Below, one piece after another: positions 3,470 to 44,041 of a stretch of DNA of 64,000 nt (within the stretch, counting starts at the first letter, position 1; every line of letters begins with the position of its first letter). The translations under genes were made by a program, and so were the position numbers. Under the pieces are notes generated by a model. The model was not told the origin of the DNA. It did no database searches and saw nothing but the letters and a program-made list of their open reading frames with translations. Source of the stretch: Streptoalloteichus hindustanus (lineage in GTDB: Bacteria; Actinomycetota; Actinomycetes; Mycobacteriales; Pseudonocardiaceae); NCBI RefSeq assembly GCF_900129375.1, contig NZ_FQVN01000004.1, positions 372,001-436,000 on the forward strand, in the 5' to 3' direction.

Positions 3470-3639
3470 GTTGCCCTCCCCGGCGCTGCCCGACTGTCGA
3501 CCTCGCGGCCCCCAGCCTGTCATCTCGTGATCATCCTCGCGCGCGGGCCCCGCGCGCGCTCAAACCGGCTGGCGTCCCGGCCGCCACCCTGACCTAGGAT
3601 CACGCGCCGATCCACCACGCGGAAGGACGACGACCTGCG

Positions 3640-12294: not shown

Positions 12295-13586
12295 GGGGCG
12301 ACGCCCTTCCCGCCGTTCGACGTGGTGCCGCTTGTCTGGGCACCGTGCCGGACTGCGACCCGCCAGAAGTGGACACCAGGTGTGGGTTGCCAGGCGTCCG
12401 GACCCATCGGCACCAACAGCCCGACGGCGACGAGTTCTGCAGCCGCGGCCCTGGCCAGTGCGGGCAGCCGCTGGTCGTAGGCTGCAGCCCAGCGCGGCAC
12501 CCTCGACCGCACCCGCGTGAACAGCTCGATCACCTCGAAGATGTCCAGCTCACCTCGTGGGTCGGGCCGCTGGGTCACCGCGTCCAGCAGCGCGAGCGCC
12601 GCCTGCCGCTCGTTTCGCCGCCCGTTCGGGAAATCGATCAGCGTGCCGATGCCGCTGGCGTCGGTGACCTCCCACCAGTCGCGCCGTGCCGTTGTGGTGA
12701 AGCCCAGGGACGCGGTGACCTCCAGAGCTCGATCACGACCAGCCGGCGTGTGCAGGTACGGCATCGCGGCACGGTCATCCAGAGGGTCAGTGGCTGGGTC
12801 ATCGACCAGGCGGCGAACCGCCCGCAGCCGGCGTTCGTCCACGCTCGGTTCGCTCGCGTTCAGTTCCTCTACCCGCCCGGTCTCGTCACCCAACGCAGCC
12901 AACGACAGGGCGCTCGACGACAGGGCGTCGACGTGCCGGGCTGCTGGCAGGTCCGCCAAGCCGAGGAGCGCGGGGGACAACGACGAGAACTTCTGCGCCA
13001 ACCTCTCCCGTGAGGCACTGACGACCAGGTCGCTCTCATCCTCGCCGATCGCGCGGTCGAGATCGGCGTCGACGGCGATCGACCCCTCGTCCACCAGGAG
13101 CTTGAGCGCGTCGACGAGGTTGGCCCGGCTCGTTTGCGCCTCCTTCTTGCCCGTGCCGTCCGAGGCGACGATCTTGAACTGGGGCAGCTGATCGGCCGGC
13201 GCTTCGGCGGCGCACACCTGGGCGATAGCCTGCATCAGCTCCCGGAGGCTCATCCTCGGCCGGCGCCAGAGCTGTTCGCACACCAGCGCGACCAGTGCCA
13301 GAATCTCCTTCGACGCCAGATGAACGTCGCGGCCGTCCCGTCGCAGCCACGGTCCCCGATCGGCCGGCACGTCGCTGCGGCGCTTGTGGAGGCGGACCAG
13401 CTCGGCTGACTCCACGACCTCCACCGCCCAGCCGAGTTCCACCCGGAAGAAGTCGGTCAGCTCCCGGCGTCCCTGAACCGCCGCCCGGTACAGCTCGACA
13501 TCCAGCTCAGCCCGGATACGGCCGGTGGCGATCAGCTTGCGGGCGGGCTCTTGCAGCTCCGGGGCCAGAGAGCGCCCGCCGCTCAC
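12291..13586 (-). CDS. jetB: Wadjet subunit JetB (DUF2398 / TIGR02678, MukE-like)
   Basis: A 431-residue protein of the DUF2398 family. It opens with a helical segment (LAPELQEPARKLIATGRIRA, then RELTDFFRVELGWAVEVV) and contains winged-helix-like stretches (LASKEILALVALVCEQLW, RANLVDALKLLVDEGSI) as expected of kite proteins such as MukE and ScpB. In Wadjet, JetB bridges the JetA kleisin and the JetC ATPase heads. No catalytic motif is expected or seen. It lies between jetA and jetC with 4-bp ATGA-type overlaps on both sides. The C-terminal 20 residues are Gly/Thr/Ser-rich and probably disordered. Confidence 0.92.
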   Translation of the reverse strand: MSGGRSLAPELQEPARKLIATGRIRAELDVELYRAAVQGRRELTDFFRVELGWAVEVVESAELVRLHKRRSDVPADRGPWLRRDGRDVHLASKEILALVALVCEQLWRRPRMSLRELMQAIAQVCAAEAPADQLPQFKIVASDGTGKKEAQTSRANLVDALKLLVDEGSIAVDADLDRAIGEDESDLVVSASRERLAQKFSSLSPALLGLADLPAARHVDALSSSALSLAALGDETGRVEELNASEPSVDERRLRAVRRLVDDPATDPLDDRAAMPYLHTPAGRDRALEVTASLGFTTTARRDWWEVTDASGIGTLIDFPNGRRNERQAALALLDAVTQRPDPRGELDIFEVIELFTRVRSRVPRWAAAYDQRLPALARAAAAELVAVGLLVPMGPDAWQPTPGVHFWRVAVRHGAQTSGTTSNGGKGVAP

Positions 13587-15130
13587 GCCGCCCCGCCCTG
13601 CTCCGCCATGTCAGCGCCAACCTCGACGTCGGCGGAGCGCAGCACGCTCACCCGGATGTCAGGAGCGGTCAGCACTCCATCTGTGAACCGCACACGCGCC
13701 ACCCTTCCCATGATGCCGAGCCTGACCAGGACCTGGAGGTTCGCCCCGTCCGCGTAGGCCCGTCCAAGGCCGCTGACCGGGTCCAACTGGGCCAGCGCGA
13801 CTTCGACGGCGCGCATCAGCACGTCGGCTGCATCCGTTGGCAGCCCAGCGAAGTGGTCCAGTGCGACCTCGCCGTCGGTCTCCAGCAGCGCGGTGAGCCG
13901 TCGCCGTCGCGCCGCCTGCGCCGCCGCGTCGATCAACGCGGCCTCACGTTCCCTGCTCGTGTCGGCCACCTTGCGGGGCCGCCCGCTGGGCGGCCCGTGC
14001 CGCTCGTGCTCCCGTAGCGTCACCTCGACGTGGTGCCTGGTGCGGCTGCCCACCGCCAGTGTCCCGTGGGCTACGTCTTCCTCGGCGGCCCTTGTCACGG
14101 CGTGCCACGCCGGCCAGTCGCCGAACGCGGCGGCGTACACTTGCCGTGCTGCGGCGTCGGTCGACTGGGCGTGCAGGCTCCGCGCCAGTATCCGGAAGTC
14201 ATGCCCCAGGTCCGAACCTCTGCGCCGAGCCGTGTAGCGACGGTCGATCGCCACGAGCAGCGTGTGCACCGCTCCCGTCGCCGAAGCGATCAGCCGGTGC
14301 ACTGTGCCGTCGGGGTGAAACCACGCCTCCAGGTCGGCCAGCCGCCGCACCCTGTCCTCCACCCAGCTCTGCTGGTCGGCGGCGTCGATCAAGCCGGCGT
14401 GAGCGACCGCTGCCTCCGCCAAGGCGTGGTGGCCCGCTGCCCGCACATCCTCCAGAGCCGCCTCCACCCGTTGCAGCGCCCGTTCGTACTCGCGGGGGAA
14501 CTGACGTAACGCCTCGACGACCCGGTCCCGGTTGTCTCCGAACACATCGTCATCGGTGACGTCGGACTGCACCATCTGCGCAAGTGCGGCGTAGAAGTCA
14601 GCGGTCACCTTCTGAAGTTCGTCCAGCCGCGTTCGCACATCGTCCAGGTCGACCGGCAGCAAACCCGGATCGCTTCCAGCGTGCGCAAGCAGCCCGCGAA
14701 CCGTGCTCTCGACACCGTCGAGAAGCCTGCTGGGCAGTTGCAGCGCCCGGCGCGCATCAACCACCGCAAGGCGGACCGCTGCGACGATAGCCCTGCCCTT
14801 GCGGGTTAATGCCCACGACTCCTGTCGAACGATCACCCCCTGAAAGCTTCGGATCGGTGCCGCGTAATCGCGAAAAGGCTCGGCAAAACCCCATTTCGCG
14901 AGTTGGTCGAGTGCCGAACGCAACTCACCCTCGGGCAGCGGATCGTGATAGCCGACCGCCTTCGCCTGTTCGGCGATGTCGCTCAGGGTGGACATCGGGC
15001 CGCGAGTGGACAACTCCTCCAACGCGGCCAACAGCGCCGTGTACCGCTCGCGCACGAGGTCCTCGGGCAAGGCGAAAACGGACCAGTCGCTCGCCTCGAC
15101 CTCCTGCCACCACCGCCGAGGCTCCCGCAC
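13583..15130 (-). CDS. jetA: Wadjet subunit JetA (DUF2397 / TIGR02677, MukF-like kleisin)
   Basis: A DUF2397-family protein of about 515 residues, first gene of the jetABCD operon. The N-terminus (SVFALPEDLVRERYTALLAALEEL) matches the family opening and leads into a winged helix (LPEGELRSALDQLAKWGFAEPF). The long helical middle fits a kleisin that connects the two JetC heads; the C-terminal part again looks like a winged helix. I place the start at the GTG at 15130, preceded by AGAGGAGA; an alternative GTG at 15181 would add 17 residues but has no ribosome site. Upstream is a 630-base gap that should hold the operon promoter. Whether all four subunits suit the type II Wadjet class is from memory. 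Confidence 0.9.
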   Translation of the reverse strand: MREPRRWWQEVEASDWSVFALPEDLVRERYTALLAALEELSTRGPMSTLSDIAEQAKAVGYHDPLPEGELRSALDQLAKWGFAEPFRDYAAPIRSFQGVIVRQESWALTRKGRAIVAAVRLAVVDARRALQLPSRLLDGVESTVRGLLAHAGSDPGLLPVDLDDVRTRLDELQKVTADFYAALAQMVQSDVTDDDVFGDNRDRVVEALRQFPREYERALQRVEAALEDVRAAGHHALAEAAVAHAGLIDAADQQSWVEDRVRRLADLEAWFHPDGTVHRLIASATGAVHTLLVAIDRRYTARRRGSDLGHDFRILARSLHAQSTDAAARQVYAAAFGDWPAWHAVTRAAEEDVAHGTLAVGSRTRHHVEVTLREHERHGPPSGRPRKVADTSREREAALIDAAAQAARRRRLTALLETDGEVALDHFAGLPTDAADVLMRAVEVALAQLDPVSGLGRAYADGANLQVLVRLGIMGRVARVRFTDGVLTAPDIRVSVLRSADVEVGADMAEQGGAA

Positions 15131-15762
15131 CGCTCTCCTCTTAGCCGCTTCAGCGCATCGAATGCGCAACCATGCAACCACGTCTGTGTTTGTCTGACAC
15201 GCGCCTCATCGGGTTAATTCAGCACCCGAGTCTGCCGTTAGCGCGATCGCGGCTGGCCAGGCTACCCGCCCTTCCATCTGACGATCTGACTACTTTCTTC
15301 GCTGCGACGAACAGGTGAAAGATCACTGATCAACCGCCGTCGTTGACGCTCCGTACTAGAACCTGAGTCCGTGCCAACAACGGCAGCTTCAGCGGCGCGC
15401 GACGAGGTGCTCGCGCGGACCGCTCGTGGCTGACGCCACTGGGCCGCCGGGTGCTCAGCGCCCTGTTGGTTCGTGCGGTCCATGGCTGGCATCTCTTCGT
15501 CCGTTCACATCCCACCGCCGACGCGTTCCTGTGGGACCTGGAGGCATGTTCGCCGTCCTGGTCTGGGACCAGTTGCCGGACGAGCGGACCGTGCGTGCCG
15601 CCGCCTGGCCGCTAAGGAGCGCTGCGCTGTGATTCACAGTGCTGGAGGCCAGGTGCTTGCGTCCAGCGGGCTGCGCCATGTCGCCATTCTTCCTGGCGGT
15701 GGCACCGGTTCTCGTCGCCCAGCCCGCTTCGAACGGCACGTCGAGCCAGACTCGTTGCGGCA
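15131..15762. other. 632-base gap upstream of the Wadjet operon, no confident gene
   Basis: This tract separates jetA from a DnaQ-type exonuclease that reads in the same direction, so it should contain the jet promoter. Short open frames occur on both strands but none has a recognisable domain. One plus-strand piece (about 15421-15605) reads like a decayed coding sequence in two frames (RRVLSALLVRAVHGW, then FAVLVWDQLPDERT), which may be a relic. No terminator, repeat or operator stood out. Confidence 0.4.
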
Positions 15763-33968: not shown

Positions 33969-34703
33969 CTACGGCTCGACGAAGTCGGAGTCCTCCGTGT
34001 CACTGCCAGCTTCGTCCTTGGAGCGCTGACGAACCAGTGGTGGATCAAAGGCCATTGCTTTGAGCTGCTTGGGGAAGCGTGCCCGTACGTCGGGCCGCGG
34101 ATGGTCGATGTAGAGGGAGGGTAGGAACTCGTCGATCGGCACGATCGCGTGCTCCAAGTGCGTTGCGAGCAGGACGTTGAGCGCGGACCGGGTGAGCAGG
34201 TAGCCAAAGGTGCAGTGGCTGTAGGCGGGCGACACGAAACCGGTTGTCACTGCCTGGTCTTGTTCAGGATCGAGGGGACAACGTCCTAGGTAGAGCACAT
34301 CGAATGTGTTGCCGGAGACGACGCGACGTAGTCCGACGAGTAAGTCATCAAGGAACGTGGATCTGACGATCGCATCGTCTTCGAGGATGACGACGAACTT
34401 CTCGTCGCCGGTCTCGGCGGCATGCCGCCAGCAGGCGAGATGCGCCAGCGTGCAGCCAATCTCGCCGTACTTCAGGGGCCTGCTCCACCACGGATTGTCC
34501 GACTCGATCTTCCACGGGAAGAGCTTGTAGCCGGCGGCTTCCAGCTGGTTCCGGGTTAGCTCGTGGCCGTCGAAGGGTCCGGTCCAGTCTGACGTGAAGG
34601 TGACCGGCATGCCGGGAGGCAGGACCGTGGTCATCCACGTGCGCCGATCTGGGCGTCGAGGCAGGTTGATCACGTAGGTGCGGAGGTCAGCGGGCGTGAT
34701 CAA
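33969..34703 (-). CDS. Glycosyltransferase family 25 protein
   Basis: A 244-residue protein of the GT25 (LPS-type, procollagen-galactosyltransferase-like) family. It begins TYVINLPRRPDRRTWM, contains GEIGCTLAHLACWRHAAETGDEKFVVILEDDAIV with the metal-binding acidic run, and ends the domain with CTFGYLLTRSALNVLL and PIDEFLPSLY. The family transfers a hexose to a sugar or a hydroxyl-lysine. It starts within the end of the preceding gene in another frame (17-bp overlap with the 453-aa protein). A GT25 gene beside deazaguanine genes raises the possibility that the modified base or nucleoside is glycosylated. Confidence 0.88.
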   Translation of the reverse strand: MITPADLRTYVINLPRRPDRRTWMTTVLPPGMPVTFTSDWTGPFDGHELTRNQLEAAGYKLFPWKIESDNPWWSRPLKYGEIGCTLAHLACWRHAAETGDEKFVVILEDDAIVRSTFLDDLLVGLRRVVSGNTFDVLYLGRCPLDPEQDQAVTTGFVSPAYSHCTFGYLLTRSALNVLLATHLEHAIVPIDEFLPSLYIDHPRPDVRARFPKQLKAMAFDPPLVRQRSKDEAGSDTEDSDFVEP

Positions 34704-36048
34704 TGCGACGGATTCCTCTCCCGGCTCGATGATCGAGGTAGCGGTCGGAGTTGTCAGCGACCGCGGTGAACGGTTCGTTGTGTCGGCGAGCCAGCAGTAG
34801 TAGCGGATTGACCATGGTCAGATCCGTGACGTCGGTGATACCGCCGATCCGCCTGGCCTCGGTTACCAGGACGAAGTCCGCGTCGCCGACTTGTTCGGTG
34901 ACGTAACGGACGCTTCGTGCGCCGCGCTCGGCTTCGAGTAGACAGCGAGCAGAACCGAGCACGCCGAGGGTCAAACACCCGCCGAGCAAGAAGACCGTGG
35001 TGCCCTGGGCGAGCGTGAGGCGAGTGAACACGGCGAGGTCTTCGAGGAGTTCCTGGCGTTGCGTCCACCGTGGTCCCAGGGTGAGCCCGCCCAGATCGGG
35101 GATGACCAGGGGGTCGTCCTCGCCGAGCGGGTGAGGTTCGAAGTGGAACGGCAGCTGGGGTAGGAACTCTCGGTACTTCGCGTTCCACGGTGGGCCGCCG
35201 ACGACTACCAGGACATCTGCCTGGGTGTCGTAGTACTCGGAGGGCGCGAAGTCCCGGATTGTCACCGTCGGAGCCAGTTGCGCGAATCGAGTTCGCAGGT
35301 AGATGAGCGTGTCCAGGTCAGCGAACTTGGCGTATCGGAGGTAGTTCCGGTCGGTCGGCGAGGCGTATTCGGGGAGCTCGTCTTCTGGGATCTCCGAGCA
35401 CACGATGTCGACCCGTGGCCCGTTCGACAGCCGCCAGAAGGCGCGGAGGTCTTCCTCCCAGTGTGCGGGCTGGCTGGCCGCGGGTTGGCGTTGGGCGGAA
35501 ACCATGCCGTTGCCGGAGGGCGACGGTCGGGGAGGTGCCGATACCCCGTTATTGCTCAAGAGCAGGTAGGCGAGGGTGTCCAGGGCGCGGTCGGCGCGAC
35601 GCCGTACGGTCTTCGCCGCGCACCTCCGCAGCCGCGCGAGTGACTCCTGCCGTTCGGTCAGCGTTGGATACCGGTGCTCGGCGACGAGGTTGAAGTCCAC
35701 CTCGACGTACAGCCGCTCGTCGTCGGCAAGGCACTCCATCGCCCGGCGAAGTACCACCACAAGCTGGTTCACTTCCTCGACTGAACCAGGCTCGCGGACC
35801 GCACCGTTGGCGAGATATGCCCGCACGGAGGCAGTCAGCGTGGTGAGTAGCGCCGTTGGTCGGGCGAGGCCATGGCCTTGACGTAAGCGCTTGAGGCCGT
35901 CCTTGACCTCATCGACGGAGAGCGAGGAGCTGGACACCCTGTCCAGGATATGTCCAGCTGCTCGACCAGTGACCAGCAACACGGGTGACGAAGGGCCTGG
36001 TCGACCACGGCATGGCGCGACAGCCTGGGACCAGGCGGAATTCACCAT
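34687..36048 (-). CDS. Protein of unknown function with actinobacterial regulator-type C-terminal domain
   Basis: A 453-residue protein. Residues about 40-160 are helical (VDEVKDGLKRLRQGHGLARPTALLTTLTASVRAYL onwards). The C-terminal 240 residues form an alpha/beta domain with DIVCSEIPEDELPEY, YAKFADLDTLIYLRTRFAQL, ADVLVVVGGPPWNAKY, and GTTVFLLGGCLTLGVLGSARCLLEAERG. From memory this second domain also follows helix-turn-helix domains in Streptomyces proteins, where its job is unknown. The repeated hhGG loops would suit a nucleotide- or ligand-binding sensor. It may be a regulator or an effector of the neighbouring island. The start ATG at 36048 is tentative; internal starts exist. Confidence 0.6.
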   Translation of the reverse strand: MVNSAWSQAVAPCRGRPGPSSPVLLVTGRAAGHILDRVSSSSLSVDEVKDGLKRLRQGHGLARPTALLTTLTASVRAYLANGAVREPGSVEEVNQLVVVLRRAMECLADDERLYVEVDFNLVAEHRYPTLTERQESLARLRRCAAKTVRRRADRALDTLAYLLLSNNGVSAPPRPSPSGNGMVSAQRQPAASQPAHWEEDLRAFWRLSNGPRVDIVCSEIPEDELPEYASPTDRNYLRYAKFADLDTLIYLRTRFAQLAPTVTIRDFAPSEYYDTQADVLVVVGGPPWNAKYREFLPQLPFHFEPHPLGEDDPLVIPDLGGLTLGPRWTQRQELLEDLAVFTRLTLAQGTTVFLLGGCLTLGVLGSARCLLEAERGARSVRYVTEQVGDADFVLVTEARRIGGITDVTDLTMVNPLLLLARRHNEPFTAVADNSDRYLDHRAGRGIRRIDHAR

Positions 36049-36178
36049 CCTGCCGTGAACCTCACCCCGTCCCGGACAAGATCACGAAACGCCGACAACG
36101 AGACGGCCTGCGCACCAGTTCCGTCGCCAGCGCACGTCGTCCGAGTGCTGTTCGACATGACCGAGGAAGGAGGGCTAC

Positions 36179-36871
36179 ATGAAGGCCGCTGACGAGAAGT
36201 GCGTGGCGAACGGCCAGATCACCATCTCGCAGTCCTTCGCCTTCAGCGCCAGCCACGAACTGAGGCTGCTACCAGCCAGTCACAAGTGTCGCCGCAACCA
36301 CGGCCACAACTACGTGGTGACCGCCTCGGCGCTCGTGCGCGATGACGCCGCCCCCGGAGACCTGTCGCCCCTTGGGGACTATCTGGCCACGACGTTCGAC
36401 CACCGGTTACTCAACGAGCAGGTCATCTTCCACCCGACGAGCGAACTTCTCGCGGCCTACCTCGCCGAGTGGTTCCGAGACAACGTCGCATCGTCGACGC
36501 CAATCACGCTTGTCACCATGGAGGTTTCGGAGACCACGACCACATCAGCGCGCTGTGACGGCGTCACCGGCGAGGTCACGATCTCGAAGACCTTCAAGAC
36601 CAGTCACGGCGACGTCACGCTGGTGCTGGGGGCGGACGGGCTCAACGAGGTTGGGTTCATCACCGATTTCGGTGACCTGAAGCCGTTCGGGACGTATCTC
36701 CAGGCGCCTGACGCCGACGCGGGGTTACGTGCTGCCGGCCCTGCGCTGGTCGCCCACCTGGCTGGCTGGTTCGTCGACAACGTCGAGCCGGAGACCCGCG
36801 GTCGACTCGTATCCGTACGGGTCGACTCGGGTACCACCACCGGCCTGTGGGAACGAGGCGATGCCTCGTGA
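36179..36871 (+). CDS. queD: 6-carboxytetrahydropterin synthase with tandem domains
   Basis: A 230-residue protein made of two QueD-type halves. QueD converts dihydroneopterin triphosphate to 6-carboxy-tetrahydropterin in 7-deazaguanine synthesis. The first half is complete: zinc ligands His26 (FSASHEL), His41 and His43 (RRNHGHNY), and the catalytic Cys37 (SHKCRRN). The second half (about residues 115-230) has the same ending (WFVDNVEPE, VSVRVDSGTTTGLWE) and the motif TDFGDLKPF, but no HGH and no Cys, so it is degenerate. The T-fold usually works as a tetramer or hexamer; the fusion would give pseudo-symmetric assemblies. AGGAAGGAGG precedes the ATG perfectly. Its stop overlaps the queE start. 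Confidence 0.88.
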   Translation: MKAADEKCVANGQITISQSFAFSASHELRLLPASHKCRRNHGHNYVVTASALVRDDAAPGDLSPLGDYLATTFDHRLLNEQVIFHPTSELLAAYLAEWFRDNVASSTPITLVTMEVSETTTTSARCDGVTGEVTISKTFKTSHGDVTLVLGADGLNEVGFITDFGDLKPFGTYLQAPDADAGLRAAGPALVAHLAGWFVDNVEPETRGRLVSVRVDSGTTTGLWERGDAS

Positions 36872-37572
36872 ACACGCTGACTGTGGCTCCCGAACGGGTA
36901 GAGGGTTCCGCGATTCTCACCGAGAAGTTCGAGTCGTTCCAGGGCGAAGGTCCCTGGACCGGGCAGCGCTGCGTGTTCGTCCGGTTCTCCCGCTGCAACC
37001 TCCGGTGCGGCTTCTGTGACACCCCGGAGAGCTGGGACTGGAGCAGGTACAACCCAGCCGAGGTCAGCGAAAGAGCCCCCGTCGCCGAGCTGGTGTCGTG
37101 GGTGCGTGAGCGCGGCGTGGACATGATGGTGATCACCGGCGGGGAGCCGATGTTGCAGCAGCCCGCCATGACCGCCCTCGCCCGCGGCCTGGCCAACGTT
37201 CGGGTGCAGGTCGAAACCAACGGCACGATCGCGCCCACACCGGAGCTGGCCTCCCTGGTCGACCTCTGGGTGGTGAGTCCGAAACTCGCGAACTCCGGCA
37301 TGACCTACTCCACCCGCATCAAGCCCGCTGCCCTCTCGGCGTTCGCCGTGACAGACCGTGCGGTGTTCAAGTTCGTGGTCACCGAGCCCGACCGCGACCT
37401 CGACGAGATCGCCCAGCTCGTCGAGGAGCACCAGCTAGCTCCGGTGTGGGTGATGCCGGAAGGCACCACCCGGGAGAAGATTCTGGCCGGCATGGACGCG
37501 CTCTACAGCCGGGCCACTGAACGCGGATGGAACGTCTCCACCCGCCTGCACATCCTGACCGGAGCGCGGTGA
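36868..37572 (+). CDS. queE: 7-carboxy-7-deazaguanine synthase (radical SAM)
   Basis: A 234-residue radical SAM enzyme. The GTG at 36868 overlaps the queD stop (GTGA). It shows FESFQGEGPWTGQRCVFVRFS, then the cluster-binding CNLRCGFCDTPESW (CX3CX2C; QueE proteins vary here), then ITGGEPMLQ as the SAM-binding GGEP motif and VQVETNGT. QueE contracts 6-carboxy-tetrahydropterin to 7-carboxy-7-deazaguanine. The length and the order of motifs are normal. It is the second gene of the operon, 238 bases before folE. Confidence 0.93.
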   Translation: MNTLTVAPERVEGSAILTEKFESFQGEGPWTGQRCVFVRFSRCNLRCGFCDTPESWDWSRYNPAEVSERAPVAELVSWVRERGVDMMVITGGEPMLQQPAMTALARGLANVRVQVETNGTIAPTPELASLVDLWVVSPKLANSGMTYSTRIKPAALSAFAVTDRAVFKFVVTEPDRDLDEIAQLVEEHQLAPVWVMPEGTTREKILAGMDALYSRATERGWNVSTRLHILTGAR

Positions 37573-37810
37573 CACCGGCTCCCCGCCCGAGCACCGGATC
37601 ACGGGACTTTCCGCGCCAGCACCAAAACCTCGACGACCTCCTGTGAGTCACGGCTTCCGAATGCCTGACCAAAACCACCCTGAATGCTCGCCGTCGCCGT
37701 CGCCGCGCTGGCCTGGCACCCCCTGCCTGCGCGCAGTGGCGCTACTACGGGCCGCTGCTGCTGCTGACGTCCTTGACCCGTTCACCACACCCGGAAGCGA
37801 GGCGAAGTCC

Positions 37811-38440
37811 GTGACCAACACCCTCGACAGGCTGGCTCCTCCCCGTGGAAGCCAGGACCTGATGTCGTCGGGTCCAGTCGACATCGAGCGCGTCGCCGAT
37901 CTTGTCGGCCAGCTCCTCGCCGCGATCGGTGAGGACCCCGGACGGGAGGGCCTGTCGGAGACGCCAGTCAGGGTCGCCGCGTGGTGGCGCAGTTTCTTCT
38001 CCCCGGAGCCGTCAGCCACACCGACCTGCTTCACCGAGCAGCACCTGAGCGACCAGCTGGTCGTGATCGGCGGCATGAGCGTCTGGTCCCTGTGTGAGCA
38101 CCACCTGCTGCCCATGAACCTGGACGTCGCCGTCGGTTACGTACCGGACGACGAAGTGATGGGCCTGTCGAAGTTCGGCCGCATCGCACAGCGGTGTGCG
38201 GGTCGCCTTCAGGTGCAGGAGCGCTTCACCCAGCAGGTAGCCGACGAGATCGCCGTCGTGATCGGCAGTACGGACCTGGCCGTCGCGGTCCGCGGCACGC
38301 ACCTGTGCATGAGCGCGCGGGGCGTGCGGATGGAGGCGGCTCGTACCACCACACTGAAGGCGGGCGGCCGATTCAAGAGCGATCCTGTGCTCTCCCAACA
38401 GTTCCTCACCCTCGCCACCGCCAGGTGGAGGGCCGCCTGA
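37811..38440 (+). CDS. folE: GTP cyclohydrolase I
   Basis: A 209-residue GTP cyclohydrolase IA. I chose the GTG at 37811 with GAGGCGA upstream; the open frame to the left is low-complexity and has no similarity. The domain begins ERVADLVGQLLAAIGEDPGREGLSETPVRVA. Zinc ligands are Cys and His in SLCEHHLLP and the distal Cys in THLCMSARGV; GLSKFGRIA and ERFTQQVADEI are also typical. It supplies dihydroneopterin triphosphate for QueD and is probably a dedicated copy, as the folate gene is expected elsewhere. The stop overlaps the ATG of the next gene by one base. Confidence 0.93.
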   Translation: MTNTLDRLAPPRGSQDLMSSGPVDIERVADLVGQLLAAIGEDPGREGLSETPVRVAAWWRSFFSPEPSATPTCFTEQHLSDQLVVIGGMSVWSLCEHHLLPMNLDVAVGYVPDDEVMGLSKFGRIAQRCAGRLQVQERFTQQVADEIAVVIGSTDLAVAVRGTHLCMSARGVRMEAARTTTLKAGGRFKSDPVLSQQFLTLATARWRAA

Positions 38441-39255
38441 TGGCCAAGAGCATCCCCTTCTCCGCGATCGCGCCGCCCAACTACCTCAACGCCTTCGTCG
38501 CACAGGAGCCCGCCAGCGTCCACCACGTGGCTGCCCAGCGTGTTCTGACCGACGCCGCCTACCGCGCGTTCTTCCACCGTGAGGCCCGGCGCGGTGCTGA
38601 GATCGTTGTCGACAACGGGGTCTTCGATCTCGGCCACGCCCTGCCAGCCGCCGACCTGATCGCGGCGGCCCGCCTCGTCGATGCCCGCGAGATCATCCTC
38701 CCGGACGTCATGCGTGACGGGCTCGCCACCCTCAGGGCCAGCGACGAAGCCGCCCGCGAGATCCTCGACCTGAGCGACGAGTTCCGGCTGTGCGTCGTGC
38801 TGCACGCGGCAGACGATCAAGAGTGGCTGCGCTGCTACGACTACTTCGCGTCCAGCGACTACGTCGGAGCGATCGCGCTGCCCGCCTCCCGGCGTCGAGC
38901 GCCCGAAGACGAGCTCTGCCGCACCCGCTGGGCAGCCACCCGGTACCTGGAAGACCACGGCATGATCGAGGGCGGCATCGTTTATCGGCTGCTTGGCCTC
39001 GGCCGCACCGGGCACCTGGAACTCGTCGAACAGCGCGAGCACGAATGGATCGCCTCGGTCGACGGCGCCGCCCCGGTCATCCTCGGCGCGATGGGCATCG
39101 CGATGCTGCCCGACGGCCCCTACGAGAAGCCACCGACTCCTCGTATCGAGAACCTGGGCCGGATCCCCGAGGAGCGGTTCGACTTGATCCGACGGAACAT
39201 CGCCGTCGTCCGCGCGGCGGCGGGCAGCAGCGTGCGGATCCCGGAGGCCGCATGA
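38440..39255 (+). CDS. DpdA-like tRNA-guanine-transglycosylase-fold protein
   Basis: A 271-residue protein that resembles the TGT-fold base-exchange enzymes, particularly the DpdA family that inserts 7-deazaguanines into DNA. The barrel segments line up: AEIVVDNGVFDLG (Asp58, in the place of the TGT DSGGF motif), AREIILPDVMRDGLATLRASDEAAREI, CVVLHAADDQEWLRCYDYF, YVGAIALPASRRR, YRLLGLGRTGHLELVE, and WIASVDGAAPVILG, where Asp208 sits where the TGT nucleophile lies. No zinc Cys cluster of tRNA TGT is present, as for phage DpdA. It overlaps folE by one base and the next gene by four. Which nucleic acid it acts on is unknown. Confidence 0.72.
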   Translation: MAKSIPFSAIAPPNYLNAFVAQEPASVHHVAAQRVLTDAAYRAFFHREARRGAEIVVDNGVFDLGHALPAADLIAAARLVDAREIILPDVMRDGLATLRASDEAAREILDLSDEFRLCVVLHAADDQEWLRCYDYFASSDYVGAIALPASRRRAPEDELCRTRWAATRYLEDHGMIEGGIVYRLLGLGRTGHLELVEQREHEWIASVDGAAPVILGAMGIAMLPDGPYEKPPTPRIENLGRIPEERFDLIRRNIAVVRAAAGSSVRIPEAA

Positions 39256-40322
39256 TGAACCTCCTCGCCAACGCGGTCCTGCCCGCACGTCCGAGTCGGA
39301 CGTTGCGCGCATCTCCCATCGCGGTGGACGGACACACGATGGCTCCGGACCGCCTTCTGCGCTACCTACAGATCAAGGTGCACCACCTCATCCAGGACCA
39401 CGACTGGGACAGCATCCACGTCGTCGGCAGCTACGACCGCCAAGCGGTGATCTCCGCCCACGAGAAGAACGGCAAGCTGTTCAACTTCGAGCGTCCCACC
39501 GCCCAGATCAACGGCCGAGCCCTGGTGGTCAAGGCATTCCCCGGCGGTGACTACGTCCACCACTACGCGCTGATCATCGCCACGTACCTCGCCATGACGG
39601 GCAAGGCGGCCGATACCGTCACCTACGAGCTTCCCGAACCCGCGGTAGCCCGTGCGGCAGCACAGCAACTCGCCCTCGACCTCGACGGCGACCTCGTGAT
39701 CGTCGGCTGGGGCCTTGCGCACCTCGCCCCGCCGGACGGTGTGTGGAACTACGGGCACGGCTACGCATGGCAGCGCACCGAGGTCAACGGCCGCCGGGTG
39801 GTCTACCTCGGTTTCCTGCACAGCATCTGGGGTGACGTCGCCGGACGAGTCGTCACGCGCCTGGCGGAGCTCGGCGCCCGCGACGTCGTCTACGTCGGCA
39901 AAGTCGGCGCACTGAACCCCGACATCGAGCCCAACACGTGGCTGGCCACCGGAAACACGAGCCTCGTGGGCGGCAGCCTCGCCACGTGGCCCGACTTCTT
40001 CGGTGGCTTCGCTACCGCCCAACCGGGCGTGCACACCGGCGTCCATGTCACCTCGCCGTCGATCCTGCTGGAGAACCAGGACTGGCTGACCGAGCACACC
40101 GAGTACGCCTTCGTCGATCCGGAGATCGGCCCCATGGGGGTCGCAGCCCGCGATGCCGGGATCGGTTTCGGCTATCTACACGTCATTTCCAACAACCTCG
40201 CTCGCCGTTACCCCGCGGACTTGTCCAACGAGCGGCACAGCGAAGTTGTCCGACAGCGCACCGTCCTCATCAGACAGATCCAGAACATCATCGCCGACCG
40301 ACTGGTCGCCCGGCCGATCTGA
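39252..40322 (+). CDS. Nucleoside phosphorylase-like protein of unknown function
   Basis: A 356-residue protein. The ATG at 39252 overlaps the stop of the DpdA-like gene. The C-terminal 200 residues resemble the PNP/UDP-phosphorylase fold: VVYVGKVGALNPDI (like the G-x-A-G glycine loop), WLATGNTSLVGG, and EYAFVDPEIGPMGVAARDAGIGFGYLHVISNNLA, in the place of the ribose-binding DME motif followed by the SD motif. The N-terminal 130 residues are less clear but carry DWDSIHVVGSYDRQAVISAH. If it is a phosphorylase it could free a base from a nucleoside or load a deazaguanine onto ribose-1-phosphate. Key residues are not conserved enough for a firm call. Confidence 0.5.
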   Translation: MMNLLANAVLPARPSRTLRASPIAVDGHTMAPDRLLRYLQIKVHHLIQDHDWDSIHVVGSYDRQAVISAHEKNGKLFNFERPTAQINGRALVVKAFPGGDYVHHYALIIATYLAMTGKAADTVTYELPEPAVARAAAQQLALDLDGDLVIVGWGLAHLAPPDGVWNYGHGYAWQRTEVNGRRVVYLGFLHSIWGDVAGRVVTRLAELGARDVVYVGKVGALNPDIEPNTWLATGNTSLVGGSLATWPDFFGGFATAQPGVHTGVHVTSPSILLENQDWLTEHTEYAFVDPEIGPMGVAARDAGIGFGYLHVISNNLARRYPADLSNERHSEVVRQRTVLIRQIQNIIADRLVARPI

Positions 40323-40342
40323 ACCCCCTGGAGGAGCACCAC

Positions 40343-41038
40343 ATGACGAACACCGCACCCCTCGTCAACCCCGCGCGGGGACGGGAGATCACGGTCGTCG
40401 GCATTGACGGCGCGGGCAAGTCCACTCTCGCCATCCGCCTGCACCACGCGCTCAACGAGGCCGGCCACGAAGCGATCCTGATTGGCAAGCACAGCACCGA
40501 AGTCCCGATGGACCCGGAGTTGTCCGCCTACGTCGATCGGCTCAACGCCCTGGTCTATCGCCGCGACGCGCGCGTCGCCCAGGCGTGCGGCGATCACTAC
40601 TGGCTGCTGGCGTTGGCCGCCTGGTACACCCTCCAGGACAAACTCGTCATCCAGCCCGCTCTCGCCGCCGGAACCCACGTGATCCTCGACAACGCCCACC
40701 ACAAGATCCTCGCTCGCTACGCGGTGAATCCCGACGTCCCCACCAGCCTGGCCGAGCAGGTCTTCGCCCACCTCACCAAAGCCGACCTGGTGTTCTTCCT
40801 GTGCATCAGCGCCCGCGACGCGCTCGCCCGCAAGGGCGAATTCAGCTCCCTGGAAACCGGCCACTCCGGCGGTGCGGACGAGGACTTCATCCGCTACCAG
40901 GACATCGTCCTCGCGAAGCTACGTGAGCACGAGCAGCGCGGCGGATGGCTGTCGGTGGACGTGACCGACATGGACCGCGACGCGGTCTTCAAGACCGCCG
41001 CTGGTGCGCTCGCCGACCGCCTCCAACTCTCCATCTGA
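40343..41038 (+). CDS. Thymidylate-kinase-like P-loop nucleotide kinase
   Basis: A 231-residue protein; the ATG at 40343 follows GGAGGAG. The P-loop is ITVVGIDGAGKSTLAIRLHHAL, the same GIDGxGKST as in thymidylate kinases. VILDNAHHKILARYAV replaces the usual DRY motif, and DLVFFLCISARDALARKGEFSSLE resembles the lid region of TMP kinases (LDxxPExxxxR). It probably phosphorylates a nucleoside or nucleotide that is made in this operon. Specificity cannot be read from the sequence. Confidence 0.8.
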   Translation: MTNTAPLVNPARGREITVVGIDGAGKSTLAIRLHHALNEAGHEAILIGKHSTEVPMDPELSAYVDRLNALVYRRDARVAQACGDHYWLLALAAWYTLQDKLVIQPALAAGTHVILDNAHHKILARYAVNPDVPTSLAEQVFAHLTKADLVFFLCISARDALARKGEFSSLETGHSGGADEDFIRYQDIVLAKLREHEQRGGWLSVDVTDMDRDAVFKTAAGALADRLQLSI

Positions 41039-41069
41039 CCCCGCCCGCAGCCACCACGAGGAACGCGTT

Positions 41070-41990
41070 ATGCCAGCAACCCGGCCGGCTGACAGCGAGT
41101 ACGTGTGCCACGGCATCACCTGGGCGACAGGAGATCCCCGGCTGTTGCTGGCCCCGCTGCCCGACGGGCCCCTGGTCTACGCCGAGATCATGAACCAGCG
41201 ACTCGGCTTCGCGGTTGGCGCTGGCCGCTGGTGCACCGGCCGGTACCAGTTCACCGACACGGTGCGCGTCGAAGCCCTCGCATGCCCCGACCGCGCGCCG
41301 ACCGAGCAGGGCGACCAGTGCGCCCGGTGCCTGCGCCAGGACGAGTTCCGCTTCGCCCACCAGTTCCACCAGCACGGCAACGTCCCTGAGGCCCTGCGCC
41401 AGTACATGGACCAGCCACACTGGCTCTACCTCGCCACCTTCGCCGACGGCGCCACCAAGGTCGGCACCGCAGCCGAACCACGCAAGCAATCCCGCCTCGA
41501 CGAGCAGGGCGCCCTGATCGCCACCTACCTGACCAGGAGTCCCGACGGCCGGGCCGTACGCCACCTCGAGGACGCCATCACCCGCGGCCTGCAGATACCC
41601 CAGACCGTCCGGGCCGTGACCAAGCTCAGGGCGCTGGCCAACCTGACCGACCTGTCCACCGCGAGCGCGACCCACGACCGCCACGTCGCCCGTGCCGCTG
41701 ACACGCTTGCCGACATGGGCACCCCGGCAATGCCGGAGAAGTGGACTCCTCCTGCCGAAGGCGAGCGGATGCGCGTCGCCAACGGCGTACGGATGCCGTA
41801 TCCGCACGATCTGCGCGACGGTGAGCACGGCTTCGCCGTCGTCTCGTGCGTCGGCACCCAGGTGCTGGCCGTCCTGGACGGTGACGACGAGGTGGGCTAC
41901 GTGCTCGACCTCGGCGCCCTCAGGGGGCGCCGCATCACGCTCGGCCCGTTCGTGTCGCCCGCCGCCGCCTTCCAGAGCTCTCTCTTCTAA
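41070..41990 (+). CDS. DUF2797-domain protein
   Basis: A 306-residue protein. The start is the ATG at 41070 after GAGGAA. Residues 65-90 hold CPDRAP and CARCLRQDEFRF, a likely zinc knuckle. The centre, HWLYLATFADGATKVGTAAEPRKQSRLDEQGALIATYLTR, is the DUF2797 core and resembles the first strand-helix of GIY-YIG nucleases (YLxxF...xKVGxT...R), with the second motif Tyr replaced. A beta-rich C-terminus follows. Family members have no known role; a GIY-YIG-like fold suggests nucleic-acid binding or cleavage. It is the seventh gene of the operon. Confidence 0.78.
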   Translation: MPATRPADSEYVCHGITWATGDPRLLLAPLPDGPLVYAEIMNQRLGFAVGAGRWCTGRYQFTDTVRVEALACPDRAPTEQGDQCARCLRQDEFRFAHQFHQHGNVPEALRQYMDQPHWLYLATFADGATKVGTAAEPRKQSRLDEQGALIATYLTRSPDGRAVRHLEDAITRGLQIPQTVRAVTKLRALANLTDLSTASATHDRHVARAADTLADMGTPAMPEKWTPPAEGERMRVANGVRMPYPHDLRDGEHGFAVVSCVGTQVLAVLDGDDEVGYVLDLGALRGRRITLGPFVSPAAAFQSSLF

Positions 41991-42060
41991 CCCGCGCCTG
42001 ACTCGCCAACGTCCCGTCCACCAAGAACCCAACCCCGCATCCTGCACGCGAGGTACCCCC

Positions 42061-42903
42061 ATGGCACCCGTGGACGCCGTTCTCGGCTGGGACGAGGACA
42101 CGACCGCGGAGGCGTACGCCGCCTTCACCCGTGACTTCCCTATGTACGGAGCCACCAGCCGAGACCTCGCCCGCCGCGCCGATCTCGCCGGCAGCCGCCT
42201 GGTGATCGACCTGTGCGGCGGAGCCGGCGCGACCGCGGAGGCGATCCTCGATCTCGTCCCATCCCAGGCCCAGGTCATCTCCCTGGACAACGCCGCGGCC
42301 ATGCAACGCGTGGGCATCCGGATGCTGACCGACCCGCGGCTGACCTGGATCACGGCCCCGGCCGAGAACATGGCCGACCACGTTCCCGGCATGGCGGACG
42401 CCGTGGTGTGCAACTCCGCGATCTGGAAGACCGACGTGCTCCAGGTGTTCGCCGCCGTCCACCAGGTCCTACGGCCAGGCGGACGGTTCGTGTTCAACGT
42501 CGGCGGCGGCTTCGCCGGCGTCCGCCACCCCGACGAGACCAGCGTGCGCACCGGACCATCGTTGAACACCCTGGTCCGTCAAGTCGCAGCTCGTGACTAC
42601 GGCTACGTCCCGCCGCCTCCAGCCGCCGAGGCAGCTCCCACGCTGCCGCTGGACATGGTCGCCGACCACCTCGCGGTCGCCGGGCTGACCGTGCTCGACA
42701 GCGAGATCGTCGCCCAGCACAGCACGATGGCCGAGAAGAAGGCGTGGCTGTCGATTCCGGTCTTCGCTCGACCCGACGGCGAGTTCACCCACGCTCAACG
42801 GATGGACATCCTCAACAAGGCGTACTCGCTGACCACACCCGACACGCCGACCGTGACGAGTTGGCTCGTGGTCGTCGCACAGCGCCCCAGAGAACAACAT
42901 TGA
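42061..42903 (+). CDS. Class I SAM-dependent methyltransferase
   Basis: A 280-residue methyltransferase. Motif I is LVIDLCGGAGATAEAIL, the acidic end of strand 2 is QVISLDNAAAMQ, and MADAVVCNSAIWKTDVLQVFAAVHQVLRPGGRFVFNVGG gives the later strands. The N-terminal 30 residues (AEAYAAFTRDFPMY) form a lid as in UbiE-like enzymes. The C-terminal 90 residues are an extra substrate domain. It is the last gene of the plus-strand operon (70 bases after DUF2797). It may methylate the deazaguanine product. Confidence 0.85.
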   Translation: MAPVDAVLGWDEDTTAEAYAAFTRDFPMYGATSRDLARRADLAGSRLVIDLCGGAGATAEAILDLVPSQAQVISLDNAAAMQRVGIRMLTDPRLTWITAPAENMADHVPGMADAVVCNSAIWKTDVLQVFAAVHQVLRPGGRFVFNVGGGFAGVRHPDETSVRTGPSLNTLVRQVAARDYGYVPPPPAAEAAPTLPLDMVADHLAVAGLTVLDSEIVAQHSTMAEKKAWLSIPVFARPDGEFTHAQRMDILNKAYSLTTPDTPTVTSWLVVVAQRPREQH

Positions 42904-42924
42904 CCCTGCCACCGGCAGGAAGCT

Positions 42925-43180
42925 GTGGCAGCGGGACCAAAGTACTGCGACCACGCGGCCGTCGGCGTGCTCATCTCCTCACCGGAAGGGCCGCTTGTCC
43001 GGTCGCCGCGTCCACGCGGGGCACCACTCGGCGGTGTCCGGCTTGGGAGCGGGTGTGGGTTCGGTTCCTTGCCGAGCTTCCGCTGGTCAGGCTGCCCGAC
43101 GGCACCTTGAGTCTGATCGACAAGGTCCTCTGGCTCGTACACCGGCGACGGGCCTCAGTACGCCCCGACGACGTTGCCCG
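42925..43180 (+). pseudogene. Possible decayed NUDIX-type gene fragment
   Basis: Directly after the methyltransferase, a plus-strand piece reads GPKYCDHAAVGVLISSPEGPL, which looks like the start of NUDIX proteins found in Streptomyces (CDHASVGV-type). Similarity then stops and another frame gives RFLAELPLVRLPDGTLSLIDKVLW. No complete NUDIX box is present. I read it as a relic with a frameshift. It reaches into the end of the intact minus-strand NUDIX gene. Confidence 0.3.
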
Positions 43181-43670
43181 CTGCCAATCGGCGCACGTAG
43201 GCGCGGATGCGGTCGCGATCCTCGGGGAACACGCTCTCCCACGTCTCGTCCAGGTCAACCCACCTCGACGGCTGTCCCGTCTCCCCGCCCAGCGGCACGT
43301 CATGGTCGACGACGGCGCCGTAGGACAGGCTCAGCGTCGGCGCCCAGTCGGCACGGAAGGAGCGGACAGCCACCGCGGCCGGCGCAGGCAGTAACTCGCC
43401 CACGACACCGGCCTCCTCCACGAGTTCACGGGCCGCGGCTGCCCGCGGCGTCTCGCCCGGCTCGACCTTGCCACCAGGCGGCACCCATCCACGCACGCGA
43501 TGCCGTACGAGCAGGACGCGGCTGTAGGTCGGGTCGGTGACCCAGACCTCGGCCGCGAGCGGCTCCATCAGCGTCTGATGGGCGCGCAGCCACGCCTGGG
43601 CGTCATCGAACTCCATCGCAGCAAGGCGAGCATCGGCGACCGCCGCTTCCACGGTCAACTGGTCGATCAC
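43155..43670 (-). CDS. NUDIX hydrolase
   Basis: A 171-residue protein with an intact NUDIX box: GGKVEPGETPRAAAARELVEEAGV (GX5EX7REUXEEXGU). The fold before it is SRVLLVRHRVRGWVPP and after it are two strands (VRSFRADWAPTLSLSYGAVV). The N-terminal 40 residues are a helical extension. Substrates of the family are nucleoside diphosphates linked to another group, so it could clean up a non-canonical nucleotide from the island, or act on NDP-sugars. It stands alone on the minus strand, convergent with the operon. Confidence 0.9.
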   Translation of the reverse strand: MIDQLTVEAAVADARLAAMEFDDAQAWLRAHQTLMEPLAAEVWVTDPTYSRVLLVRHRVRGWVPPGGKVEPGETPRAAAARELVEEAGVVGELLPAPAAVAVRSFRADWAPTLSLSYGAVVDHDVPLGGETGQPSRWVDLDETWESVFPEDRDRIRAYVRRLAAGNVVGAY

Positions 43671-44041
43671 CTGGCCCAGCCTAAGCCGAGGTCACGGCCA
43701 CTCCTGGCATTGCGGGGAGAGCACGGCGCTGCGTGTCAGCAGGCTGTGAACGGATCGCCACGACGCAATGACCTGGTCACGATCCCTGGCCGCCGGCGGC
43801 GGGTGCCGTAGCTGGTCAGGGTGCTCCGCACAACCCCGACAAGTGAGGAGCACACCGATCGACCGCAGCACTGTCCGCCTCGCAGGCGGCGTCCCCGGCC
43901 ATCGCAGCCGTCAACCGCGTGGCGCGATGTGTGCCAGCGCGCAATCTCCTTCGGTGCGGTGTGGCCCACCTGGTCCGCGAGGGTGTCGTGCGCACCACGG
44001 CCGGAGGGTTTCGCCTGGTTTCTCAGGCGATGCGGGCCTGA
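43671..44041. other. Gap of about 350 bases with a possible gene relic
   Basis: Between the NUDIX and phosphotransferase genes. A plus-strand frame without a start codon (from about 43847 to the TGA at 44039-44041) reads like real protein at its end (CGVAHLVREGVVRTTAGGFRLVSQ), possibly the wing of a decayed winged-helix domain. Nothing else was recognised. Confidence 0.25.

Follow-up and report, generated by a model that had tools for sequence, protein, structure and literature searches.

FolE, QueD and QueE make 7-carboxy-7-deazaguanine (CDG) from GTP. Deazaguanine precursor genes accompany a base-exchange enzyme in the bacterial dpd islands and in operons of phages such as phiST, immuto, BSTP5 and Youna2, and they also occur in the tubercidin, toyocamycin and huimycin gene clusters. 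Here we describe a locus of Streptoalloteichus hindustanus that shares features with all of these systems. The window, meaning the whole stretch of 64,000 nucleotides that was analysed (assembly GCF_900129375.1, contig NZ_FQVN01000004.1, positions 372,001 to 436,000), contains at 36179-42903 the eight co-directional genes reported in a preliminary description of this DNA, all on the + strand and at the positions given there. They form the larger part of a conserved cassette whose central protein is predicted to have the fold of tRNA-guanine transglycosylases (TGTs) and of the DNA-modifying enzyme DpdA. Our preferred reading, held tentatively, is that CDG takes the place of guanine on a nucleotide, giving a nucleoside or nucleotide specialised metabolite, and that the DUF2797 protein protects DNA; the substrates and product are ones we infer. 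The features of the locus are as follows.

36179..36871, + strand: QueD-like 6-carboxytetrahydropterin synthase (PF01242, 3.2e-18, residues 15-127)
36868..37572, + strand: QueE-like radical SAM (S-adenosylmethionine) enzyme, CDG synthase (radical SAM Pfam, 2e-11; phrog_2076, 5e-55)
37811..38440, + strand: FolE, GTP cyclohydrolase I (PF01227, 9e-50)
38440..39255, + strand: predicted TGT/DpdA-fold base-exchange enzyme of the small phage type, 271 residues (AlphaFold, Foldseek, VIA)
39252..40322, + strand: nucleoside phosphorylase superfamily-like protein; Asn314 stands where the catalytic Asp is expected (PF01048, alignments)
40343..41038, + strand: thymidylate-kinase-like (TMPK-like) P-loop kinase (PF02223, 3.4e-9, above cut-off; alignment)
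41070..41990, + strand: DUF2797 protein with Cys-rich N-terminal part and C-terminal QSSLF (PF10977, 2.8e-6)
42061..42903, + strand: class I SAM methyltransferase (PF13649, Methyltransf_25, 4e-10)
42904..43154, + strand: remnant of a second NUDIX gene with an internal deletion (gap alignment with relatives)
43155..43670, - strand: convergent NUDIX hydrolase, cassette member (PF00293, 6.8e-16)
36116..43754, strand not given: transferable cassette, extent of the DNA homology block (whole-window blastn against 40 loci)

Comparison with described systems

Like the bacterial dpd islands, the cassette combines a TGT-fold enzyme with deazaguanine precursor genes and is mobile and patchily distributed. 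It differs from them in having no DpdB-K domains and no QueC in the operon, and its TGT-fold protein is distant from canonical DpdA. The available part of PMC11888242 gives DndB, helicase, SNF2, PLD and DUF6884 as dpd partner domains. Pfam scans covering the cassette together with seven flanking proteins detected none of these, which rules out a classic dpd island at this locus and agrees with the earlier statement that the dpd helicase and restriction genes are absent.

The operons of phiST, Flavobacterium phage immuto, BSTP5, Youna2 and CP220 share with the cassette nearby FolE, QueD and QueE genes (except in the CP220 stretch), a small TGT-fold protein with the same invariant residues and, in four of six stretches when a further phage stretch (L048) is included, a kinase-like gene close by. 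The difference lies in the remaining genes: tblastn found no phosphorylase-like, DUF2797 or related methyltransferase gene in phage stretches L048, L052 and L053, and for these three proteins BSTP5, CP220 and phiST were judged by annotation only.

With the tubercidin and toyocamycin clusters the cassette has FolE, QueD, QueE and a NUDIX hydrolase in common, and with tubercidin it would also share the processing of CDG at the nucleotide level. Unlike those clusters, it has no match to PRPP (phosphoribosyl pyrophosphate) transferase (TubE), GMP reductase (TubD) or decarboxylase (TubF), a Pfam match to a PRPP transferase being absent from all cassette proteins; it has TGT-fold and phosphorylase-like proteins instead, and the window copy has no exporter. 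According to the part of PMC6112128 available, TubE joins CDG to PRPP and a NUDIX enzyme completes the product; by analogy, a base exchanger could replace TubE in the cassette. The huimycin cluster likewise has QueD, QueE, FolE and a SAM methyltransferase, but the portion of PMC7439116 at hand describes QueC, a glycosyltransferase and a regulator, and no TGT-fold protein. Among the titles and abstract openings listed in literature searches there was no paper describing the operon, its absence from print being unproven; a published passage on DUF2797 concerned unrelated associations.

A conserved and mobile cassette

The operon is conserved as a unit in other actinomycetes, a comparison that the preliminary description had proposed. 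A scan of genome contigs with the DpdA-like protein gathered 34 loci, and in tblastn counts that include partial matches each of the other seven operon genes was present in 32-34 of them. The unit is larger than the eight genes first described: the convergent NUDIX gene was present in 31 of the 34 loci, a second NUDIX gene in 25 (two clearly partial), and the gene for a 403-residue downstream protein in 15 as well as on three plasmids. Absences of the seven operon genes and of the convergent NUDIX gene fall in L020, which is truncated, and in L031 and L043, which reach contig ends. The 403-residue protein, which we read as CYTH-like, has an ExExK-like stretch and no Pfam match; a 463-aa minus-strand open reading frame (ORF) in L030, considered as an extra operon gene, is most likely antisense to its gene. 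In the window the second NUDIX gene is a remnant in which only residues 147-177 of the intact protein align, at 43038, and an intact copy from another locus matches PF00293 at 7e-14. The idea that 42904-43154 was a noncoding conserved gap after the methyltransferase gene was dropped on this alignment.

The limits of the cassette were sharp. Whole-window blastn against 40 loci (L014-L053) gave matches in 37, all within 36116-43754, and outside these positions there was no match of any length on either strand; L048, L052 and L053 had no match to the window at all. Homology is confined to this block, and it is therefore regarded as a transferable cassette. The gene U1 (34687-36048) and its GT25 neighbour were found in 0 of the 34 loci by tblastn and hence lie outside it. 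Values of dN/dS between the window and L014 were 0.14-0.26 across all eight genes, a sign that the cassette genes are under purifying selection.

Several observations concern its movement. Amycolatopsis tucumanensis, A. echigonensis and Prauserella flavalba, three assemblies from two genera, are 100% identical across 16-17 kb, and loci L015 and L047, 100% identical to L014 over 16-17 kb, are not independent of it. Four Streptomyces plasmid records carry the cassette, one with a phage portal gene nearby. Twelve of 200 Pseudonocardiaceae genomes matched, nine convincingly (the genome studied here included, and one a fragment) and three weakly; in a phylum-wide draw of 396 genomes there were three convincing matches, again counting this genome, and one weak one. 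Weak TGT-like matches at E ~2e-4 to 8e-4 (G013, G146, G175, G403) were dropped, as no cassette protein had a tblastn match (E 1e-3) in the surrounding stretches (L058, L059, L060, L063).

QueD and QueE are only 38-52% identical to those of the window in Streptomyces, Kitasatospora, Dactylosporangium and Microbispora-group loci, in which the products of the FolE-to-methyltransferase genes are at least 63% identical, except in L043 (FolE 35%, kinase 58%, phosphorylase-like protein 61%). We read the locus as a mobile, selected cassette whose precursor genes may be swapped provided that CDG gets delivered. Developmental control is hinted at in Streptomyces/Kitasatospora, where 13 of 16 loci have a phosphorylase-like gene with a TTA codon at position 4. 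Conservon-type genes (HATPase, Roadblock, DUF742, GTPase, GAF) were seen near the cassette in 12-14 related Streptomyces/Kitasatospora loci (e.g., L030 606-4393).

A small TGT-fold protein related to phage enzymes

The DpdA-like protein has no Pfam match, so the label needed a structural test. Its AlphaFold model (pLDDT 91.8) found TGTs as the best Foldseek matches in the PDB (5e-7), and VIA aligned 240 residues with a Z of 16.2 and a root-mean-square deviation of 4.0, the 50 matches listed being all TGTs (Z 15.8-16.2). From the model we are confident that the protein has the TGT TIM-barrel fold, as had been proposed before; a non-TGT TIM barrel is ruled out, the best matches of both programs being TGTs. 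Its chain of 271 residues is shorter than those of the bacterial TGTs matched in the Foldseek rows (337-382 residues).

Searching the PDB by sequence only with the TGT-like family gave no significant match, and with phage members added the sole match was the DNA-guanine transglycosylase 7ui4, at a non-significant E of 0.91. An hhalign comparison with the DpdA of phage 9g (probability 22.6, E 9e-4) indicated a distant relation to canonical DpdA. Residues P12, Y41, D58, N59, D89, T97, I145, R163, L185, G186, S206, D208 and N253 do not vary among the 10 bacterial and phage members compared; in the low-probability hhalign alignment D58 and D208 line up with DSGAF and SCDSS of 9g DpdA, presumably the sites of the catalytic TGT aspartates.

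Phage relatives recovered by tblastn were a protein of Weizmannia phage Youna2 (7e-6) and one of a Flavobacterium phage (8e-3), the latter bearing the annotation DNA guanine transglycosylase, and onward searches from these two reached Bacillus BSTP5-type and Campylobacter CP220-type phages. Among viral structure models the second match, and the best with its own organism name, was CGPG_00065 of Cellulophaga phage phiST (3e-14, TM 0.76/0.79), encoded near FolE, QueE and QueD, with no QueC annotated in 50 of 79 kb. Judged by these searches, the closest DpdAs found are small phage proteins encoded in deazaguanine operons. A hypothetical protein of CP220 (L090 5995-6771), 44% identical to the DpdA of immuto, also belongs to the small TGT-like family and may carry out base exchange in these phages.

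A kinase-like gene lies within three genes of the TGT-fold gene in four of the six phage stretches, two of the four cases being weak. It is adjacent in CP220 (AAA_28 1.7e-12) and three genes away in immuto (AAA_28 3e-13); the adjacent gene of BSTP5 is annotated as thymidylate kinase and has weak Pfam matches only, and that of Youna2 has only a weak P-loop match. There is no kinase gene beside the DpdA-like gene of L048, which overlaps an ORF read as DNA polymerase I, and none is annotated near that of phiST, where the neighbours include, by annotation, hypothetical proteins. The annotated neighbours of the canonical DpdA of phage 9g are clamp, polymerase and precursor genes, with no kinase. 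Base exchange at the nucleotide level was considered because of this difference between the phage relatives and 9g. DNA polymerase genes were found near the TGT-fold gene in four of the six stretches, the exceptions being CP220 and the part of phiST covered.

The precursor base

Since the operon has no QueC, CDG rather than preQ0 is the likely base of the cassette. Elsewhere in the genome, strong QueC matches (at least 125 bits) were present in five of 10 cassette genomes, including this one, where QueC lies ~111 kb away, and G170, where the match is the GAT-QueC of a second cluster described below. Four others had weak matches over the cut-off (23-27 bits), which we take for another ATP pyrophosphatase, and one had none. 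In two genomes (G161, contig C74, and G105, contig C12) a stand-alone QueC lies ~16 kb from the cassette. A canonical queuosine role is ruled out, as none of the 10 cassette genomes has a tRNA TGT (PF01702). In phages the final base differs: Youna2, BSTP5 and L048 carry QueC or GAT-QueC and immuto carries QueF, so they do not end with CDG.

Residues 127-230 of the QueD-like protein resemble, by eye only, a degenerate second PTPS half. The QueE-like protein matched TIGR03963 at 7e-27, under the curated cut-off of that profile, and FolE of the cassette is one of three PF01227 matches in this genome. The gap of 238 bases before folE was measured as previously reported; all other neighbouring genes overlap or sit 20-70 bases apart.

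An asparagine at the expected catalytic position of the phosphorylase-like protein

The phosphorylase-like protein of the window scored 25.0 bits against PF01048, for which the cut-off is 25.1, and 10 of 11 family members matched individually (E up to 1, best 7e-6). When the PDB was searched with the family profile, uridine phosphorylases were the best enzyme matches (9e-4); RecA fusion chains scored above them through a repeated short match, taken as spurious. Glu291 is present and position 314 lies 23 residues on, a spacing we take to be that which, in MTAN and DeoD, separates the Glu that binds ribose from the Asp that serves as acid. Alignments A1, A2 and A3 comprise the window with 26, 22 and 19 loci, respectively; near-duplicates, the truncated L020 and L043 and the broken L041 were dropped where needed. 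All 22 rows of A2 that extend to position 314 have Asn there, as do nine of nine deazaguanine-linked rows of alignment A4, and Asp is found in both unlinked rows (L077, L078), the only two Asp rows, which are unlinked to deazaguanine genes within the stretches covered. Because a 7-deazapurine has no N7 to protonate, Asn in place of Asp fits a deazapurine substrate; alternatively, Asn314 could reflect a preference for 6-oxopurines. Neither tblastn against 50,697 phage records nor a pattern-based scan of IMG/VR viral contigs recovered the family.

The DUF2797 protein

The whole DUF2797 model had a pLDDT of 49.6, with ten-residue means of 58-87 over residues 111-180, and residues 107-215 form a strand-strand-helix-strand-helix run. 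The top six VIA rows were Slx1, a GIY-YIG nuclease, at Z 5.6-6.0, below the caution level of 8 given by the tool (best match Z 6.0, residues 107-232), with UvrC lower. Slx1 also headed the Foldseek list, its E of 0.36 being non-significant, and searching the PDB by sequence gave nothing useful. Tyr120, Arg142 and Glu167 are invariant in 20 rows, and the position assigned by eye to the YIG tyrosine reads Lys. We regard a GIY-YIG-like core as a lead, on weak evidence from the model.

The protein ends in QxxLF, a sequence that we presume to be like clamp-binding motifs, in the window (QSSLF), in 30 of the 31 loci for which its ORF was called, and in L076; the sole exception among the 31 is L041, apparently frameshifted. 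The variant loci L057 (RQTLF) and L077 (APTLF) do not match exactly. Only one of 210 window ORFs ends this way, the DUF2797 gene itself, compared with 41 of 3276 across the loci, of which 36 bear DUF2797 sequence marks, three are DUF2797 by context (L051, L065, L076) and two are not DUF2797. QxxLF is also the ending of three DUF2797 proteins that lie apart from any deazaguanine operon seen (QDGLF, QFSLF and QEALF in L064, L065 and L067), and the clamp-like ending may be general to DUF2797.

Variant clusters and other genes

Genome G170 has a divergent second cluster (L057, 1801-12588) that encodes on one strand a GAT-QueC fusion (QueC 1.5e-53), a guanylate-kinase-family protein, DpdA-like and phosphorylase-like proteins (42% and 55% identical to those of the window), HIT, kinase, QueE, QueD and DUF2797. 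Beyond a gap of ~300 bases are PqqD-like, Rce1-like, nucleotidyltransferase and MFS genes. No methyltransferase was seen among the cluster genes, and in this single case tailoring of the QueC type and of the methyltransferase type look like alternatives to one another. The cluster could encode an amidine-deazaguanine or peptide-nucleotide pathway. In L076 the cassette is complete; its core and NUDIX proteins are 52-65% identical and FolE, QueE and QueD 33-41%. The stretch of L077 covered (19.5 kb) contains genes for phosphorylase-like, kinase, DUF2797 and HIT proteins and none for DpdA, FolE, QueD or QueE. The phosphorylase-like protein of L078 is 25-27% identical; its gene has aminotransferase, methyltransferase, P450 and CYTH genes as neighbours, an arrangement resembling a biosynthetic cluster.

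The methyltransferase of the window matched the PADLOC defence profile mads_2 at 3e-13, with weak likeness, far under the cut-offs, to BioC and trans-aconitate methyltransferase, and the NUDIX protein matched a PADLOC candidate profile at 4e-7. Elsewhere in the window a Wadjet-like defence operon was found at 6074-15181 on the - strand (PADLOC; JetA 1.5e-47, JetC 1.5e-162, JetD 1e-58, and a weak JetB at 4e-5), alongside a phage-type integrase at 2237-3523.

Possible functions of the cassette

In the pathway that we tentatively favour, FolE, QueD and QueE would convert GTP to CDG, and the TGT-fold protein would then put CDG in the place of guanine, its most likely substrate being a guanine (deoxy)nucleotide or a short nucleic acid and not whole chromosomes. 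The TMPK-like kinase and the phosphorylase-like protein, the latter altered for a base without N7, may phosphorylate or cleave the modified nucleotide or nucleoside, and the NUDIX and CYTH-like enzymes may trim phosphates. Our guess is that the methyltransferase caps the 7-carboxylate. The end product would be a nucleoside or nucleotide specialised metabolite, which DUF2797, with its GIY-YIG-like character and clamp-like motif, would clear from the DNA of the producer. Four observations favour such a product: the abundance of nucleotide enzymes, the replacement of Asp by Asn, the existence of L077 without DpdA, and the exporter gene of L057. Nucleotide-handling enzymes predominate in the cassette: the phosphorylase-like protein, the nucleoside monophosphate-kinase-like protein, one or two NUDIX proteins and, in 15 of 34 loci, the CYTH-like protein.

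Several points weigh against a metabolite of this kind made from CDG. The window cassette has neither exporter nor regulator, and only L057, a single divergent cluster, was seen to carry MFS and PqqD genes. The presence of QueC elsewhere in half of the cassette genomes weakens the case for CDG in those genomes, where preQ0 is a possible base, and QueC, GAT-QueC or QueF is carried by most of the phage relatives, only phiST having none in the part covered. These relatives sit in operons for DNA modification, for the most part close to DNA polymerase genes, and this speaks for DNA as the substrate; the clamp-like motif and nuclease-like core would suit DNA work equally well. To our knowledge, all TGT enzymes characterised to date act on polynucleotides. 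Phosphate pools of dADG were reportedly looked for, and not seen, in Campylobacter firehammerviruses.

Nearly as likely as the favoured pathway, and likewise short of probable, is the possibility that the cassette modifies DNA. The TGT-fold protein would insert CDG, perhaps methylated later, into host or mobile-element DNA, as phages do; DUF2797 would be a clamp-bound restriction or repair nuclease; and the kinase, phosphorylase-like and NUDIX proteins would manage the nucleotide pool. DNA modification or defence is favoured by phage kinship, with phiST CGPG_00065 the best named structural match, by the patchy and mobile distribution that includes the phage-like plasmid, by the GIY-YIG-like core and QxxLF ending of DUF2797, and by the profile matches of the methyltransferase and NUDIX proteins. 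Against it, the cassette has no DpdB, helicase or known restriction domain by Pfam, the phosphorylase-like protein was missing from the viral collections searched, and DUF2797, kinase and phosphorylase-like genes exist without DpdA in L077.

We consider it quite improbable that the cassette is the gene cluster for cadeguomycin or a close analogue. Cadeguomycin is, we believe, 7-carboxy-7-deazaguanosine and a product of Streptomyces hygroscopicus, which would accord with CDG as the predicted base and with the cassette copy in S. hygroscopicus subsp. hygroscopicus (L036). The strain identity is unmatched, however, the cassette is widely distributed and has no exporter, and the methyltransferase and DUF2797 would have no obvious role. 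Cadeguomycin is named among the compounds without an identified cluster in the available part of PMC12648386. Insertion of CDG into tRNA or other RNA by the TGT-fold protein is very unlikely: the fold and the lack of a competing host TGT would allow it, but the relatives found are phage DNA-modification proteins, the chain is shorter than the bacterial TGTs matched, and the nucleotide enzymes would be left unexplained.

Nucleotide-level exchange, as in the pathway favoured above, can be extended to the phages. For Campylobacter phages, the available part of Hutinet et al. (2019; PMC6884629) contains the proposal that a modified dGTP is used by the polymerase. We speculate, while thinking it unlikely to hold as a whole, that the TGT-fold branch common to phages and the cassette replaces the guanine of free guanine nucleotides by 7-deazaguanine and works with a dedicated kinase, so that modified (d)NTPs would be made before polymerisation, and that bacteria turned this chemistry into a mobile nucleotide-antimetabolite pathway in which DUF2797 would be a clamp-binding nuclease that guards DNA.

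The cassette joins three fields that are usually separate: deazaguanine modification of phage DNA, nucleoside antibiotics, and the mobile cassettes that antibiotic producers carry. It bears on how some phages replace guanine, whether by exchange in DNA or through a modified dGTP pool, and it offers first specific hypotheses for two little-known protein families: that DUF2797 may be a clamp-binding, GIY-YIG-like protein, and that the phosphorylase-like family may carry an active-site change suited to a base without N7.

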